Below, piece after piece: positions 14,439 through 21,443 of a DNA stretch of 55,238 nucleotides; position 1 is the first letter of the stretch; each line of letters starts with the position of its first letter. The notes under the pieces are model-generated. The model was not told the DNA's origin. It saw only the letters and a list, made by a program, of their open reading frames with translations, and did not search any database. The stretch is from contig JARKQH010000075.1 in assembly GCA_029974925.1 (NCBI GenBank), positions 1 to 55,238 of the forward strand. Direction: 5' to 3'. Source of the DNA: Verrucomicrobiota bacterium. GTDB taxonomy: Bacteria; Verrucomicrobiota; Verrucomicrobiia; Limisphaerales; UBA8199. The position numbers and the translations under genes are program-made.

Positions 14439-17195
14439 ATGAACATCAAGCCGCTGAACGAGTCGGGGTTGCTGGCGCGCTGGCTCAACTGGCTGGCAAG
14501 GCAGGTGATCCGTTACCGTCGCTGGCTGGTGGCGCCGCAGGTCTGTCTGTTTGTCCTCTGCGTCCTCTATACCGTCAGGCACCTCGAGTTTGACAACAAA
14601 CGGAGCAGCCTGGTTGGCCGCGACCAGCGTTATCACCGCCTCTATCAGGAATTCAAGGAGGAGTTCCCCACCCAGGACGACCTGGTCGTCGTGGTGGAGA
14701 GCGAGGAGGCGGAGAAGAACCGGCAATTTGTCGAGCGGCTGGGCGCCAAGCTCGAGCGGGAGACCAACACCTTCAACCACGTGCTCTACAAGGGGGACCT
14801 CAAAATGCTCGGGGCCAAGGCCCTCCTGTTTGTGCCGGAGGGGGACTTGGCGCAGCTCAAGGCCACGCTGCACGATTACCGCCCGTTCATCCAGAAGTTC
14901 AGCCAGTCCACCAACCTGGTTTCGCTGTTCCAAATGCTCAACACCCAGTTTCGCACCGCGCGAAAACAGGAGCAGTCGGAAAGCGAATCGCTCGTCAAGG
15001 CCCTGCCCGCCCTCGAGCGGATTGTGCGGCAGACCACCAGCAGCCTGCGCCGCAGCGGCACCCCGCCCTCCCCCGGCATCACCGCTCTGTTCAACCCCGA
15101 GCGCGGGGCGGAACAGAAGCTCTACCTGACTTCCGCCGACGGGCGCATCTACCTGGTCACGGTCCAGGCGCCGCGGGCGGAGTTGAACGACCGGGCCATC
15201 CAACGCCTGCGCGAACTGGTCCAGGAAACGCGCATGGAAGTGCCGGGCTTGAACGTCGGCCTCACCGGCGAGCCGGTCCTCGAGCTGGATGAAATGAACC
15301 AGTCCCGCCGGGACACCACGGTTGCCAGCCTGGTGGCGCTGATTCTCTGCGCCTTTATTTTCATCTACGGCTACCAGGAAACCGGGCGGCCCATCAAAGC
15401 CACCCTCTGCTTGATCCTCGGCCTGGGCTACACGATGGGCTTCACCACGCTGGTCATCGGCCACCTGAACATCCTCACCATCACGTTCGTTCCCATCCTC
15501 ATCGGCCTGGCCATTGACTATGGCGTCCACCTGATCTCCCGCTACGAGGAGGAGCTGCGTCATGGCAAGAGCGAGGAAGCCGCCCTGACCCGGGCCATGG
15601 TGTACACCGGGCAGGGCATCTTCACCGGCGCCTTCACCACGGCCGGCGCCTTCCTGGCCATGGCCCTGACCAATTTCCGCGGCATCCAGGAAATGGGAAT
15701 CATTTGCGGCGGCGGCCTGCTCATCTGCCTGGTTCCCATGATGACCGTGCTGCCCGCGCTGCTGTTGCGCGGGCGCCAGAATGTGATGGATCACGAGGCC
15801 GGCAGCCGCCTGGACCACCGCGCCCGCATCGAAAACCTCTGGCTCCAGCGGCCCGTGGCGGTCGTCGTCATCACCCTCGCCCTCTGCGCGCTGAGCGCCT
15901 CGCAATTGCGGAAAGTGACGTTCGACTACAACCTGCTCCACATGCAGAGCAAGGGGCTGGCCGCCGTTCAGTTCGAGCACAAGCTCATCGAGTCTTCCTC
16001 CAAATCGGTCCTCTACGCCGCCGTGGTGACCACCAATCTGCAGCAGGCCCTGGCCCTGGAACACCAGATCACCAACCTCACCAGCGTGGCCAGCGTGAAT
16101 TCCATCACCCAGTTCCTCGCCGAGGACCAGCGCCGGAAACTGGAAACCGTGTCCGAGCTCAAGCGCGACCTGGCCTCGCTGGAGTTTGCGCCCCTGGACC
16201 CCCGGCCGGTCAACGTGCCCGAGCTCAGCGCCACCCTCTATTCCTTCTACGGTTACCTCGGCGCGGCTCGTGAAGTGGTGCAGACCAATGACCCCCCGCT
16301 GGCGGATCAGCTTTTTTCCTTGCGCGAAGCCGTGGGCGAACTTCGCAAGGAAATGCAGCCCGGAGAAACCAACGCGGTGATCGAAGCCAGGCTCAGTGAA
16401 TTTCAGCGCGCGCTGTTTCGCGACCTTCACGACACGTTTGCCGCGCTCAAGCACCAGGATGACACCGGCCCGCTTCGCATCGAAGACCTCCCCCCCGTTC
16501 TGCGCGACCGCTTTATCGGCGTCACCGGCAAATACCTCATCATGGTTTACCCCCGCCACGACGTCTGGCAGCGCGAGCATCAACAGGAATTCATTCGCCA
16601 GCTCCAGACGCTCGACCCCGAGGTGACCGGCACGCCCGTGCAACTCTATTATTACACGGAATTGCTCAAGACCAGTTACGAGGACGCGGCGCGTTACGCC
16701 CTGCTTGCCATCGCCCTGCTGGTCTTCCTCCACTTTCGCAGTCCGCTTTCGGTCGCCCTGGCGCTCACGCCGGTGATTGTCGGCTTTCTCTGGCTCGGCG
16801 GAATCATGGGCTATTTCGGCATCCCGCTGAACCCGGCCAATATCATGATGCTGCCGCTGGTGATCGGGATCGGGGTCACCAACGGCATTCAGGTCCTGAA
16901 CCGCTACGCCGAAGAGCAGCACCCCGCCATGCTGGCCCGCAGCACGGGAAAGGCCGTGCTGGTCAGCGGGCTGACCTCCATCGCCGGTTTCGGCAGCCTG
17001 ATCCTCGCCCAGCACCGGGGCATTCAAAGCCTCGGGCAGGTCATGGCCATCGGCCTTTCCACCTGCATGATTGCCGGTCTGACGTTCCTGCCGGCCTTGC
17101 TCAACCTCCTTGGACACATCCGCGTGCGCCCCTATGTAAAACGACCCAGCGCCGACAATGCACGATCGGCACTGGGCCGGGAGGAACCGAGGTAA
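14439..17195 (+). CDS. MMPL/RND-family exporter (HpnN-like)
   Basis: A 918-residue inner-membrane transporter with the internal duplication of the RND superfamily. One membrane helix lies at ~25-45, a periplasmic domain at ~50-280, five helices at ~285-450 including 'FVPILIGLAIDYGVHLISRYEEE' (its first 18 residues span a proton-relay type helix), a second periplasmic domain at ~480-740, and five helices at ~745-905 with 'GIGVTNGIQVLNRYAEEQ'. Size and pattern fit the MMPL group that moves lipids, including the hopanoid transporter HpnN. No hopanoid synthesis gene is visible nearby, but the Mla lipid-transport genes lie 1.7 kb downstream, so a lipid substrate is a fair guess. The start is weakly supported because no strong ribosome binding site precedes it. 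Confidence 0.88.
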   Translation: MNIKPLNESGLLARWLNWLARQVIRYRRWLVAPQVCLFVLCVLYTVRHLEFDNKRSSLVGRDQRYHRLYQEFKEEFPTQDDLVVVVESEEAEKNRQFVERLGAKLERETNTFNHVLYKGDLKMLGAKALLFVPEGDLAQLKATLHDYRPFIQKFSQSTNLVSLFQMLNTQFRTARKQEQSESESLVKALPALERIVRQTTSSLRRSGTPPSPGITALFNPERGAEQKLYLTSADGRIYLVTVQAPRAELNDRAIQRLRELVQETRMEVPGLNVGLTGEPVLELDEMNQSRRDTTVASLVALILCAFIFIYGYQETGRPIKATLCLILGLGYTMGFTTLVIGHLNILTITFVPILIGLAIDYGVHLISRYEEELRHGKSEEAALTRAMVYTGQGIFTGAFTTAGAFLAMALTNFRGIQEMGIICGGGLLICLVPMMTVLPALLLRGRQNVMDHEAGSRLDHRARIENLWLQRPVAVVVITLALCALSASQLRKVTFDYNLLHMQSKGLAAVQFEHKLIESSSKSVLYAAVVTTNLQQALALEHQITNLTSVASVNSITQFLAEDQRRKLETVSELKRDLASLEFAPLDPRPVNVPELSATLYSFYGYLGAAREVVQTNDPPLADQLFSLREAVGELRKEMQPGETNAVIEARLSEFQRALFRDLHDTFAALKHQDDTGPLRIEDLPPVLRDRFIGVTGKYLIMVYPRHDVWQREHQQEFIRQLQTLDPEVTGTPVQLYYYTELLKTSYEDAARYALLAIALLVFLHFRSPLSVALALTPVIVGFLWLGGIMGYFGIPLNPANIMMLPLVIGIGVTNGIQVLNRYAEEQHPAMLARSTGKAVLVSGLTSIAGFGSLILAQHRGIQSLGQVMAIGLSTCMIAGLTFLPALLNLLGHIRVRPYVKRPSADNARSALGREEPR

Positions 17196-17266
17196 ACACC
17201 CTCTGCTCTATGAAGAGAATAGGAAGGCGGATGGATAAAGTCAACAGAACAATGAGGGAAAAAGGC

Positions 17267-18790
17267 ATGAAAGAGACACCGATAACGTTAACGCCAGCCC
17301 GCTTTGCCCAAGCCGTCACCAGCCTCCTCCTCGTGCTCTTTTCATCCTCACCCCTTGCCCAGCCCCTCGACACCCACGGTGACGACCTCTGGAACTGCGG
17401 TCCGCTGGTTGACAGGTTCTCCCTCACGCTGACAAGCGGGCAGCGAACTGAAGTGCTCGGCCCATTTTACTATTACGAGGCCCAGCCTGAGCAAACAACC
17501 TGGGCGGTGCCTCCGCTGTTTTCGTCCAGCCGGAATCCAGGCTTGGAAACACGGGAGTACGATTTCCTTTATCCCTTGCTAACCTATGACCGTTTTGGAG
17601 ACCAATATCGCTGGCAGTTGATCCAACTGCTGAGTTTTGCGGGCGGCCCGACGCAGACGGAAACGAATCGCGATCGTTTCACGGTGTTTCCCTTCTATTT
17701 TCAGCAGCGTTCCTCCGATCCCGGAGAGAACTACACGGCCTTGTTTCCGATTTACGGCAATCTCAAGCACCGGCTGATGCGCGACGAGATTCATTTCGTC
17801 CTGTTTCCCGCCTACAGCCGGACGAAAAAACGCGACGTGGTGACGCACAACTACCTGTACCCGGTTTTTCACCGTCGCAGCGGCGACGGGCTGACCGGGT
17901 GGCAGGTCTGGCCGTTGGTGGGTCATGAAGTCAAGCGGGAGACAACGCGCACCAACGATTTTGGCGAGACCGAAAAGGTGGGCGGACACGAACGGTGGAT
18001 GGCCCTTTGGCCGATTTTCTCGGAACAGCGGCTGGGGTCGGGAACCACCAACCCGGTCTGGCACCAGGCGTTATTGCCCGCCTACTACCTGAGCCGCTCA
18101 CCCGCGCGGGACCAGACCACCGTCCTCTGGCCCTTCTTTTCACGGATTGAGGACCGGGAGAAGAAGTATGTCGAGTGGCAGGCGCCGTGGCCTATTGTGG
18201 CGGTGGCGCGCGGGGAAGGAAAGACGGCGACGCGGGTGTGGCCGCTGTTCAGCCGCAGCCAATCCGAGGTCATAAGCAGCGAAACCTACCTTTGGCCACT
18301 GTACCGCCACAAGCGGGTGCAGGCAGACCCGCTGGACCGGGAACGGACCCGCATTCTCTACTTTCTTTTTTCGGACGTGAACGAGAAGAACACCGAGACC
18401 GGCAGGAGCCGCGAATGGCAGGCGCTTTGGCCCTTTTACTTTCACCGGCAGGAAGCGGATGGCAGCCGGCGGCTGCAGGTGTTGGCGCTGCTCGAGCCCA
18501 TCCTGGCCAACAACGAAAACATCGAGCGCAACTACTCGCCGCTCTGGGCGTTGTGGCGGTCCGAGCACCGCCCCGAAACGGGCCGGTCGAGCCAGTCGCT
18601 GCTGTGGAATCTCTACCGCCGGGAAACCTCGCCGGAGGAAAAGAAATGGTCCGCGCTTTTTGGATTGTTCCAGTATCGCTCGGGGACTCAAGGGAAGCGG
18701 GTGCGCCTGTTTTTCCTTCCCTTCAGCGGCCCCCGGAAGACCGCGGAGGGAGCGCCGCCAGCGGGCGCGCCGGCGCGGTCTGAAAATTGA
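17267..18790 (+). CDS. Secreted protein of unknown function with recurrent W-P-L/F motifs
   Basis: 507 residues from the ATG at 17267, chosen because GAGGG lies eight bases upstream and a signal peptide follows ('FAQAVTSLLLVLFSSSPLA'). In-frame ATGs at 17210 and 17231 are possible. The mature part is built from repeated short segments rich in aromatics: 'LGPFYYYEAQPEQTTWAVP', 'FLYPLLTYDRFGDQYRW', 'TVFPFYFQQR', 'LYPVFHRRSGDGLTGWQVW', 'ALWPIFSEQR', 'LWPFFSRIEDREKKYVEW', 'LWPFYFHRQEADGSRR'. Each unit looks like a strand, a charged turn and a W/F-P-F/L strand. This suggests a beta-propeller or outer-membrane barrel. It lies between the MMPL exporter and mlaE, so envelope or lipid transport is plausible. 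I do not recognise the family. Confidence 0.8.
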   Translation: MKETPITLTPARFAQAVTSLLLVLFSSSPLAQPLDTHGDDLWNCGPLVDRFSLTLTSGQRTEVLGPFYYYEAQPEQTTWAVPPLFSSSRNPGLETREYDFLYPLLTYDRFGDQYRWQLIQLLSFAGGPTQTETNRDRFTVFPFYFQQRSSDPGENYTALFPIYGNLKHRLMRDEIHFVLFPAYSRTKKRDVVTHNYLYPVFHRRSGDGLTGWQVWPLVGHEVKRETTRTNDFGETEKVGGHERWMALWPIFSEQRLGSGTTNPVWHQALLPAYYLSRSPARDQTTVLWPFFSRIEDREKKYVEWQAPWPIVAVARGEGKTATRVWPLFSRSQSEVISSETYLWPLYRHKRVQADPLDRERTRILYFLFSDVNEKNTETGRSREWQALWPFYFHRQEADGSRRLQVLALLEPILANNENIERNYSPLWALWRSEHRPETGRSSQSLLWNLYRRETSPEEKKWSALFGLFQYRSGTQGKRVRLFFLPFSGPRKTAEGAPPAGAPARSEN

Positions 18791-18917
18791 CTGTGCCACC
18801 TTTTCAGATACAGTCGGGAAGCCCGGGCAACGAACCGGGCGCCCGGCCGGGCGAAGTTGACGGCGGACGCCTGAAGCAGGGCGGTTCGGGAAGACGACGC
18901 TGCCGGGGTGAACAGGT

Positions 18918-19655
18918 ATGTTTCAAAATATCGGAGAAATGGTGATTTTGTTCTGGCGCACGCTGCTGGCCCTGCCGCAGACGTGGCGCCAGCGGCAAAA
19001 GGTGTTCGACCAGTTTTTCGAGATCGGCAACGCCAGCCTGCTGATGGTCTGCATCCTGTCGTTTTTCATCGGCGGCGTCATCGCCCTCCAAACGGGACCG
19101 GTGCTGGTCGAACGCGGCCTGGCCAGCGCCGTCGGCGGCGTGGTCGGCATCGCCATCTGCAAGGAGCTGGCGCCGGTCATGATGTCCATCCTGATTGCCG
19201 GCCGGATTGGTTCGGCCATGGCCGCCGAGATCGGCTCGATGCGGGTGTACCAGGAGATTGACGCGCTGCGGACGATGAATATCAACCCCATTACGTACCT
19301 GGTGCTGCCGCGGCTGGTGGCCATCGCGGTGGCGCTCCCCTTGCTGGTCATTTTTTCGATCCTGGTGGGCTGGCTTGGCGGCGCCCTGGTCTCGGTCGCC
19401 AACACCCGGATTGACATCCCTTTCGAGTCGTTCTTCACCACCCTCGACGATGTGGTGGCACTGAAGGATGTGGTCAACGGCGTGTTCAAGAGCTTCATTT
19501 TTGCGCTGGTGGTGGGCACCGTCTGCTGTCACCAGGGCCTGATCACGCGGGGAGGGCCGCGCGGTATCGGCCGGTCCGTCACCAAAGCGGTGGTCAACTC
19601 GATCGTGCTGATTGTGCTCTTTGACTACATCCTCACCCGCATCCTGTTGCGCTGA
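18918..19655 (+). CDS. mlaE: MlaE-family ABC transporter permease
   Basis: A 245-residue inner-membrane protein of the MlaE/YrbE family. Hallmarks are 'FFIGGVIALQTGPVLVERG', 'IAICKELAPVMMSILIAGR', 'IGSAMAAEIGSMRVYQEID' and 'ALRTMNINPITYLVLPR'. With MlaF and MlaD it forms the complex that moves phospholipids between inner and outer membrane and maintains lipid asymmetry. Its TGA shares one base with the mlaF ATG at 19655, and mlaD follows 10 bases after mlaF. No mlaA, mlaB or mlaC gene is seen here. The ATG at 18918 has AACAGG very close upstream. Confidence 0.95.
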   Translation: MFQNIGEMVILFWRTLLALPQTWRQRQKVFDQFFEIGNASLLMVCILSFFIGGVIALQTGPVLVERGLASAVGGVVGIAICKELAPVMMSILIAGRIGSAMAAEIGSMRVYQEIDALRTMNINPITYLVLPRLVAIAVALPLLVIFSILVGWLGGALVSVANTRIDIPFESFFTTLDDVVALKDVVNGVFKSFIFALVVGTVCCHQGLITRGGPRGIGRSVTKAVVNSIVLIVLFDYILTRILLR

Positions 19656-20416
19656 TGAACCAGGCCAATTCCAACCTTCACGGGGTCGGCGTCCAGGTTC
19701 GGGGGCTGCAAAAGAGCTTCGGCGGCCAGCGGGTGCTCAAGGGGCTGGATTTCGACGTCCAACCGGGAGAGATCTTTGTGATCATGGGGCCCAGCGGCAG
19801 CGGCAAGTCGGTGCTGTTGAAACACCTGGTGGGGTTGGAGGAACCGGACGCCGGCGACATCCTCATCCAGGGGGAATCCATCCGCTCCGGCGACGTGCTG
19901 AGCAAATACCGCCTGGCGATGGTGTTTCAATCCGGCGGGCTGCTGAACTCGCTGACCGTGGGCGAAAATGTCGGGCTCTACCTGAGCGAACATCGGCTCA
20001 AGCCGCCCGAGGAAATTGCGCGCATCGTGAACGAGAAGCTCGAGGTGGTCGGGCTGGCGGGCACGCAGGAGAAAATGCCTTCGGAACTCTCCGGCGGCAT
20101 GCGCAAGCGCGCCGCCATTGCCCGGGCCTTGGTCATCGAACCGCAGTTGATCCTTTACGACGAACCGACCAGCGAGCTGGACCCGCTGTCGGCCGTGATC
20201 ATTGCCGAGGAAATCGTCAGCCTCAACCAGCGAACGGGGGTGACCTCGCTGGTGGTATCGCACGATCGCGAGCTGGCCTTCGGGGTGGCCGACCGCGTCG
20301 CCGTGATTCACGAAGGCCGCATCCTGACAATCGGCACCCCCGAGCAGGTCCGCCAATGCGCCGAACCCCTCGTGCGGGAATTCCTCAGCGCCGGATTTAA
20401 ACGCAACTCCTCCTAG
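19655..20416 (+). CDS. mlaF: MlaF-family ABC transporter ATP-binding protein
   Basis: 253 residues with all ABC ATPase motifs: Walker A 'GPSGSGKS' near residue 45, Q-loop 'MVFQSGGLLNSLTVGENVG', signature 'LSGGMRKRAAIARAL' near 145, Walker B 'LILYDEPTSELDP' near 168, and the switch His in 'LVVSHDRELAF'. 'QSGGLLNSLTV' and the 'GGMRKR' signature are typical of MlaF-type lipid transporters rather than other importers. It powers the MlaE permease encoded immediately upstream. Confidence 0.95.
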   Translation: MNQANSNLHGVGVQVRGLQKSFGGQRVLKGLDFDVQPGEIFVIMGPSGSGKSVLLKHLVGLEEPDAGDILIQGESIRSGDVLSKYRLAMVFQSGGLLNSLTVGENVGLYLSEHRLKPPEEIARIVNEKLEVVGLAGTQEKMPSELSGGMRKRAAIARALVIEPQLILYDEPTSELDPLSAVIIAEEIVSLNQRTGVTSLVVSHDRELAFGVADRVAVIHEGRILTIGTPEQVRQCAEPLVREFLSAGFKRNSS

Positions 20417-20426
20417 CTGTCTGGTT

Positions 20427-21443
20427 ATGAAAAACACGCTTGAAACTCGACTCGGCATTTTCGTGGCCCTGGTGGTGATCGCCGCCGTGTTGATCCTGGA
20501 AACCCTCGGCGGCATTGACCTGTTCCAGCGCGGCTATTATGTCGCCGCGCTCTTCGACAACGTCCAGGACCTCAAGGTGGGCGACCGCGTCAAGATGGCC
20601 GGCGTCGAAATCGGCCGCGTCCACGGCATCGAACTGACCAACAACAAGGTGCTGGTGAACATGAAGCTCAAGGAAGGCGCGCAGGTGAGAACCGACAGCA
20701 TTGCCCGGGTCCAATTCACCGGCTTGATGGGACAGAATTACGTGGCCATCAGCTTCGGCTCGCCCGGCGCCCCCCTGGCCGCGCGGGAAAACACCTACCT
20801 GGCCACCGCGGAGCAGCCCGACCTGGCCGCCATCATGCAAAAGATGGACAACGTGGCCTCCGGGGTGGAAAACCTCACGCGCAGCTTTACCGGCGAAAAG
20901 ATTGACAATCTGCTCGGTCCGTTCACGGATTTCATCAAGGCCAATCAAGTGCCCCTGACCACTACCATTGCCAACCTCCAGAAGATTTCCTCCCAGATCA
21001 CACGCGGGGAGGGGACGATCGGCAAGTTGATTTACGACGACGCCCTGTACCAGTCCACGCATGCCGCCATCACCAACATTCAGGAGCTGAGCGCGGACGT
21101 GAAGCTGGGGTTGGCCGATGCCCGGCAGGCCATGAGCGACGCCCGCCTGGCCATTGGCGATGCCCGCGAGCTCATGGCCAACGCCAAAGCTGGCCAGGGC
21201 ACCGTCGGCAAGCTGCTCACCGACGAGGCGCTCTACCGCGAAACCACCAATGCCATGACCCAGCTCCGTGAGATTCTCCAGAAGATGAATCAGGGCCAGG
21301 GCACCGTCGGAAAACTCATCAACGACCAGGAATTCTACAAGAACGCCAAACTGAGCCTGCAAAAAGTGGATAAAGCCACCGAAAGCCTGGAAGACCAGGG
21401 CCCGCTGAGCGTCATCGGCCTGGTGTTCGGGAACCTCTTTTAG
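20427..21443 (+). CDS. mlaD: MlaD/MCE-family substrate-binding protein
   Basis: 338 residues. One N-terminal membrane anchor ('LGIFVALVVIAAVLILETL') is followed by an MCE domain at residues ~35-115 ('VQDLKVGDRVKMAGVEIGR', 'IARVQFTGLMGQNYVAISF'). The rest is a long helical C-terminal part. This part carries three copies of a short motif: 'GEGTIGKLIYDDALYQ', 'GQGTVGKLLTDEALYRE', 'GQGTVGKLINDQEFYKN'. E. coli MlaD has only ~183 residues, so the C-terminal extension is more like the Mce proteins of actinobacteria and plastid TGD2-like proteins. It should form the hexameric periplasmic ring of the MlaFED complex. It is the last gene of the operon, with 17 bases to the convergent FN3 gene. Confidence 0.92.
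   Translation: MKNTLETRLGIFVALVVIAAVLILETLGGIDLFQRGYYVAALFDNVQDLKVGDRVKMAGVEIGRVHGIELTNNKVLVNMKLKEGAQVRTDSIARVQFTGLMGQNYVAISFGSPGAPLAARENTYLATAEQPDLAAIMQKMDNVASGVENLTRSFTGEKIDNLLGPFTDFIKANQVPLTTTIANLQKISSQITRGEGTIGKLIYDDALYQSTHAAITNIQELSADVKLGLADARQAMSDARLAIGDARELMANAKAGQGTVGKLLTDEALYRETTNAMTQLREILQKMNQGQGTVGKLINDQEFYKNAKLSLQKVDKATESLEDQGPLSVIGLVFGNLF

Follow-up and report, generated by a model that had tools for sequence, protein, structure and literature searches.

What stands on the outer-membrane side of the lipid transporter MlaEFD in bacteria that lack MlaC and MlaA? The question is raised by a stretch of 55,238 nucleotides (positions 1 to 55,238 of contig JARKQH010000075.1, assembly GCA_029974925.1; hereafter, the window) from a Verrucomicrobiota bacterium of the order Limisphaerales (UBA8199), in which a gene of no known family, here called X, lies directly ahead of mlaE, mlaF and mlaD. 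We lean towards the view that X is a dedicated partner, on the periplasmic or outer-membrane side, and the fourth component of a distinct transenvelope-type MlaEFD system of Verrucomicrobiota, where it occupies the place of MlaC and MlaA. The computed basis is a conserved gene linkage, a near-exclusion with MlaA, a correlation with long MlaD and a predicted fold. Because of the linkage X would belong with MlaEFD, and because of the distribution it would take the place of MlaC and MlaA. From these data we infer the export of X, its location, a contact with MlaD, a handling of lipids and a direction of transport.

Gene order around protein X

The genes for an MMPL exporter, X, MlaE, MlaF and a long MlaD follow one another on the + strand throughout. 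A locus was counted for a neighbour of X when 1 kb or more of sequence was present on the relevant side. Outside the order, mlaE was found downstream of X at 53 of the 59 usable loci (60 fetched, one ended by its contig); at 52 the complete trio of mla genes was present. The same neighbour was present at 41 of 51 loci inside the order (53 fetched) and, among 80 loci fetched from named genome contigs, at 69 of the 78 usable ones; some of these loci belong to the order set as well. An MMPL gene preceded X at 32/47 loci in the order and 71/78 named contigs, and at 0/57 loci outside the order. Since the mlaE link is phylum-wide and the MMPL link order-only, the association of X with the mla genes would be old and that with the exporter limited to the order. 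In this sense, the lipid exporter to which the first-pass annotation drew attention is indeed a neighbour of X in the window and its order, but not outside it, and the conservation of gene order, on which that annotation had made its proposal depend, holds across the phylum for X-mlaE-mlaF-mlaD. The 60 loci from outside the order represent 59 genomes (one, G252, taken twice), hand-picked, mainly among the better-scoring, from 119 genomes with X, while the 53 order loci comprise all X-positive relatives except G023 and G042, where contigs end.

X is single-copy in the genome of the window. Counting that genome, 56 of the 58 in the order have X, as one match in 52 and as two complementary pieces in four. 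The two negative genomes are G013, which has only a 35% identical MlaE paralogue, and G020, which is 57% complete. Phylum-wide, in 288 genomes, X was detected in 120 and MlaE in 267, with several X matches in some genomes outside the order. The 20 listed genomes that lack MlaE all lack X as well, one further MlaE-negative genome being unlisted. Scanning genome contigs with the single sequence yielded no relative; an alignment-based scan gave 216, and the 80 best were retained. Among these best 80 of 216, most belong to assemblies of Limisphaerales or Verrucomicrobia subdivision 3, and one record is titled Omnitrophota (L136). On plasmids, the search returned one chance-level match (E 0.7) in a WD40 gene. 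In ten order loci mlaE was not beside X; of nine such genomes examined, eight keep an orthologous mlaE (67-89% identical) elsewhere, and the ninth (G057, 82% complete) has MlaE paralogues only.

The features of the locus in the window are as follows.

14439-17195, + strand: HpnN-like MMPL/RND exporter, 918 amino acids (PF03176, E 3e-51; TIGR03480 HpnN, E 1.8e-177)
17267-18790, + strand: protein X, 507 amino acids, open reading frame; signal peptide at about residues 1-31, then a predicted 44-strand beta-meander (48-481) with a short helix at 417-427
17267-17359, + strand: presumed signal peptide of X, with an SPLA-QP junction read from the sequence and a hydrophobic helix at residues 10-26 in the model
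18918-19655, + strand: MlaE permease, 245 amino acids (PF02405, E 1.2e-71; TIGR00056, above cut-off)
19655-20416, + strand: MlaF ATPase, 253 amino acids (PF00005, E 1.6e-32; NF008809 MlaF, E 3.4e-53, below its cut-off)
20427-21443, + strand: MlaD, long type, 338 amino acids (PF02470, E 1.1e-18; AlphaFold2 model)
21006-21317, + strand: stretch of the MlaD extension with three GTxGKL repeats, read from the sequence; short helix breaks in the model

The MlaEFD core of the Mla/MCE lipid transport system is thus complete at 18918-21443 (PF02405, PF00005, PF02470). X starts 71 bases after the end of the MMPL gene (17195) and ends 127 bases before the start of mlaE (18918). These gaps and coordinates agree with the first-pass annotation when the open reading frames are checked, and its assignment of the MMPL, MlaE, ABC ATPase and MlaD genes is upheld by the Pfam and NCBIfam matches. 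The exporter scores 592 against TIGR03480 (HpnN), under the cut-off of 752, and is named HpnN-like only. An alternative in-frame ATG at 17210 would give an X of 526 amino acids; the start at 17267 is the likelier one judging from the sequence, with AGGGA seven bases ahead. Just before X, within the 3' end of the MMPL gene, lies an inverted repeat of 15 pairs (17142-17179), followed by a T-run only when read on the - strand. Two more mlaE-mlaF pairs occur in the same genome, at G000:C304:6589-7221 and G000:C190:1187-1810, on contigs other than that of X; their MlaE are 37% and 27% identical to that of the window.

Protein X, MlaA and MlaC across the phylum

Profile searches of the whole assembly of the window (97.6% complete) found neither PF04333 (MlaA) nor PF05494 (MlaC), in agreement with the absence that had been claimed from the window. 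Within the 58 genomes of the order MlaA occurs in 11 and MlaC in one. Over the 288 genomes of the phylum, MlaA is present in 13 of the 120 genomes with X versus 100 of the 168 without it (Fisher p 4e-18), and MlaC in 7/120 versus 23/168, a weak contrast (p 0.03); both are raw counts that ignore descent. Families were compared by inspection, with no statistical test. In family f50 both MlaA and MlaC occur in every one of the five X-less genomes, which represent three genera, while among its 19 X genomes MlaC was found in one and MlaA in a different one. In f56, two X-less genomes hold both proteins and one X genome neither.

We examined 20 mlaC loci from the 30 genomes with MlaC, and X was at none of them. 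The genes mlaE-mlaF-mlaD plus mlaA adjoin mlaC at eleven (L260, L261, L265, L266, L268-L270, L273, L274, L278 and L279), an MMPL gene does so at five, and neither at four. At the eleven, MlaD has an open frame of 152-183 amino acids in nine cases; the other two frames, of 251 and 335, overlap mlaF. At the five loci with an MMPL exporter (L267, L271, L272, L275, L276), MlaA and MlaC are accompanied by that exporter in place of mlaEFD. Hopanoid clusters have an HpnM/HpnN pairing, which these MlaA-MlaC-MMPL loci recall. The matches to MlaA include numerous open frames of 600-800 amino acids, one of which was scanned; this frame of 664 amino acids (L195:1321-3312, in G045) has an MlaA domain near its N-terminus and, beyond it, a weak match to an alpha/beta-hydrolase that stays below cut-off (E 2.9e-4); it possibly encodes an MlaA-lipase fusion.

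The type of MlaD also differs between the two kinds of locus. Homologue start codons were chosen by script, which makes all MlaD lengths approximate. In three sets of X-linked loci the median length of MlaD is 328, 326 and 324 amino acids, with at least one GTxGKL-like motif in 41/41, 49/51 and 67/67 (56 of the 67 MlaD found at genome-contig loci were aligned as A3). At the mlaC loci the median is 152 (range 147-335) and the motif is seen in 0/12, one of these MlaD not being adjacent to mlaC. The MlaD of the window has a transmembrane helix (3-26), an MCE domain (about 36-127) and a helical extension (133-335) in its AlphaFold2 model, whose mean predicted local distance difference test (pLDDT) score is 74.6 and mostly 44-76 in the extension. 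The elongated MlaD with a helical extension that characterizes transenvelope systems of the Veillonella type is thus present here, in a low-confidence region of the model. No strand is modelled past residue 127, and hence no C-terminal outer-membrane barrel. The triple GTxGKL extension reported by the first-pass annotation, which thought that it could contact X, was recovered at residues 194-201, 256-263 and 290-297. A Bacteroidota MCE protein was seen by reading to have GxGPxxxLLTD-type repeats, and since GTxGKL-like repeats also occur in long MlaD unrelated to X, they do not by themselves point to a contact with it.

In a quick MlaE tree, the 11 mlaC-linked MlaE all fall on one side of a single branch (Shimodaira-Hasegawa-like approximate likelihood ratio test support 94). 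This tree was built by a fast method from 108 of 134 rows, with 15 order-level X-linked rows kept, and has long branches meeting. The X label needs 6 changes on it, partly because relocated orthologues bear the label O. Taken together, the distribution of X, MlaA and MlaC, the types of MlaD and the MlaE branch indicate that two alternative Mla modules seem to exist in the phylum, one of X with long MlaD and the other of MlaC/MlaA with short MlaD.

Sequence and predicted shape of protein X

The first-pass annotation had described X as a protein with a signal peptide and at least seven W/F-P-L/F repeats that matches no known family. A signal peptide is apparent from the helix and junction listed above. 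The repeats are real and had been undercounted: by a somewhat looser pattern ([WFLY]-P-hydrophobic kind), X holds 13 hydrophobic-[aromatic or aliphatic]-P-hydrophobic motifs, while 2000 shuffles of the same residues gave 1.0 on average and never more than 5. Homologues were aligned in two overlapping sets, A1 (49 of the 53 order loci plus the window; L034, L056, L057 and L083 excluded) and A2 (78 of the 80 genome-contig loci, without L145, which has an immediate stop in frame, and L147, at a contig end). With starts chosen by script, a run of 12 residues containing at least 9 hydrophobic ones lies near the N-terminus in 36 of the 50 A1 rows and 62 of the 79 A2 rows. A lipobox-like pattern was seen in just 8 of the 129 rows, so most X homologues would not be lipoproteins.

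The lack of a known family was borne out by every search. A Pfam scan of X found no family at E<=1, and PF04333 and PF05494 matched neither X at E<=1 nor any of 50 homologues at E<=0.1. Scattered weak matches of those 50 reached at best E 0.089 (Pfam) and 0.015 (NCBIfam), each in one sequence. A profile of 50 X sequences had no match at E<=10 among PDB sequences. The sole NCBIfam match of X itself was LA_1737_Cterm (NF047486; E 0.23, residues 429-467). We discarded homology with the LA_1737 family, as this weak likeness stays far under the cut-off (11.4 versus 60 bits), the lowest E among the 50 homologues being 0.049, in a single sequence. A literature search on LA_1737 with Leptospira and the outer membrane found no paper.

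The AlphaFold2 model of X, from 79 sequences, has a mean pLDDT of 91.8 and a predicted TM-score of 0.78. It comprises the signal helix, 44 strands averaging 5.9 residues and the single helix at 417-427, and the protein is apparently an elongated, open, single-layer beta-meander with one aromatic-proline edge. Alternate turns define two edges. On one of them, a row of hydrophobic aromatic-proline tips, a proline conserved in at least 99% of sequences sits in 15 of 20 turns, versus 0 of 22 on the other, whose turns are mostly polar. At about 4.8 angstroms per strand, the modelled meander could be about 200 angstroms long. The width of the periplasm is similar.

Neither the propeller nor the barrel about which the first-pass annotation had asked is apparent in this model. 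Strands of 5.9 residues on average speak against a closed outer-membrane barrel, in which membrane-spanning strands would have about 9 or more, and neither the model nor the listed fold-search matches favour a propeller. A known enzyme fold, which that annotation had named as an outcome contrary to its proposal, did not turn up among these matches either, an absence that does not prove the fold to be new. Foldseek gave no global match among the matches listed (TM-score by query <=0.20). Local structural matches were the radial spoke complex (Z 10.5), CPAP (9.9), OspA (9.7), MORN1 (8.8) and ApoB (8.4), with parts of porins and LptD ranked lower; the top 20 span Z 8.0-10.5 over 113-270 residues, with root-mean-square deviations of 3.9-25 angstroms. 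OspA, MORN repeats and the TCP10/G-box of CPAP consist of tandem antiparallel hairpins with local Z of about 8-10.5, and we take these single-layer sheets to be binding or structural proteins. X differs from them in having about 20 hairpins, with an aromatic-proline tip at the majority of alternate turns, and shows neither sequence kinship with them nor, among the matches listed, a global match.

Candidate roles of protein X

A dedicated partnership with MlaEFD would work as follows. X would be exported to the periplasm, as its N-terminal sequence suggests, and would cooperate with the inner-membrane MlaEFD on the outer-membrane side, where E. coli has the shuttle MlaC and the lipoprotein MlaA. 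The long helical MlaD could be tubular, as has been suggested for Veillonella, with no outer-membrane barrel, and X would supply the link to the outer membrane. In this sense, the proposal of the first-pass annotation that X is the outer-membrane or periplasmic partner replacing mlaA and mlaC gains from the conserved order and from the tendency of X to be present where MlaA and MlaC are absent, and loses, outside the order, its connection with the exporter. As to its mode of action, X may be a lipid rail, a membrane comb or an anchor. TamB/YhdP and LptA are elongated beta proteins proposed as lipid carriers across the periplasm. By analogy with these, X might be a bridge-like lipid-transfer protein, a single-layer ribbon spanning the periplasm with lipid tails moving along its aromatic-proline edge between MlaD and the outer membrane, as the Verrucomicrobiota alternative to the MlaC shuttle and MlaA. 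We regard this specific form as rather unlikely. Compared with those proteins X has short strands, an apparently open single sheet and no family match.

Several observations weigh against a dedicated partner in the place of MlaC and MlaA. Family f79 has 11 genomes with X, and two of these also contain both MlaA and MlaC; its two X-less genomes have both in one case and neither in the other. Overall, 14 of the 120 X genomes also carry MlaA or MlaC; in the 13 of them with a listed X position, the genes are on separate contigs or far apart from X. Conversely, 57 of 268 genomes counted for MlaE (the one unlisted negative included) have neither X, MlaA nor MlaC. At 13 mlaE loci from such genomes X was in none and MlaD had 252-355 amino acids in 11, so X is evidently dispensable for long MlaD. 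In two such genomes (G079 and G091; L318, L319) a protein of 267 amino acids, of unassigned kind, lies directly upstream of mlaE. The lengths of X and MlaD are uncorrelated (Spearman 0.23, p 0.15, n=41; 0.08, p 0.59, n=51), which gives no support to a coupling between them. In the model, one turn of the tip edge is polar and one of the opposite edge strongly hydrophobic. Hydrophobicity is practically the same on both faces of the sheet (0.37 and 0.38, with approximate registers), and amphipathic faces were thus not found. The invariant prolines may also have a role in the fold only; their conservation suggests packing inside it. Finally, in eight order genomes X lies apart from its mlaEFD, in seven of these beside an MMPL gene.

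This last observation bears on a different explanation, that X primarily serves the HpnN-like MMPL exporter as a partner in the transport of hopanoids or other lipids, with its place before mlaEFD reflecting a shared regulation of the envelope. The frequent adjacency of X and the MMPL gene in the order agrees with it, as does the parallel pairing of MlaC with an MMPL gene at 5 of the 20 mlaC loci. Outside the order, however, X keeps mlaE and is never preceded by the MMPL gene at the loci counted above, and we consider this explanation improbable. Just as improbable, in our opinion, is that X merely shares the operon and is a beta-repeat protein, periplasmic or secreted, with an unrelated role such as the binding of cell wall or polysaccharide: single-layer beta repeats do serve many functions and MlaEFD with long MlaD occurs without X, but the phylum-wide linkage of X with mlaEFD and its low overlap with MlaA speak against it.

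A dedicated MlaEFD partner can be placed beside the known systems. E. coli Mla consists of MlaFEDB, MlaC and MlaA. Here too, homologues of MlaE, MlaF and MlaD are encoded in one operon, and X stands at the genetic place of MlaC and MlaA while matching neither Pfam model; the system differs from that six-part type in that MlaA and MlaC were not found in the assembly and MlaD has 338 amino acids with a helical extension. According to the available part of a study of Veillonella parvula (PMC10665443), MlaEFD is widespread in diderms, MlaA, MlaB and MlaC are mostly proteobacterial, and the transenvelope MlaEFD of that species has an elongated MlaD and neither MlaA nor MlaC, as in the genome of the window. 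Long MlaD bearing barrels is described in the same part, with MlaD barrels absent from bacteria of the PVC (Planctomycetes, Verrucomicrobia and Chlamydiae) group, and the question is raised for Veillonella whether non-homologous proteins take the place of the missing Mla parts (PMC10665443). The Verrucomicrobiota system differs in its barrel-less MlaD and in an extra, apparently exported protein ahead of mlaE, no protein like X being mentioned in that part of the source (PMC10665443). Short MlaD is reported there to be restricted to Proteobacteria (PMC10665443), and the short MlaD with MlaC and MlaA that we found in this phylum extends that picture. Our search of the literature on Mla in Verrucomicrobia, with most subscription journals outside its coverage, found no paper on an X-like partner, and one on single-layer sheets in lipid transfer yielded nothing of use.

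X is thus a concrete candidate for the missing outer-membrane link of MlaEFD in one phylum, being conserved, unnamed, linked to mlaEFD and seldom present alongside MlaA. Furthermore, the two modules, X with long MlaD and MlaC/MlaA with short MlaD, offer a natural comparison within one phylum that could be tested in culturable strains.

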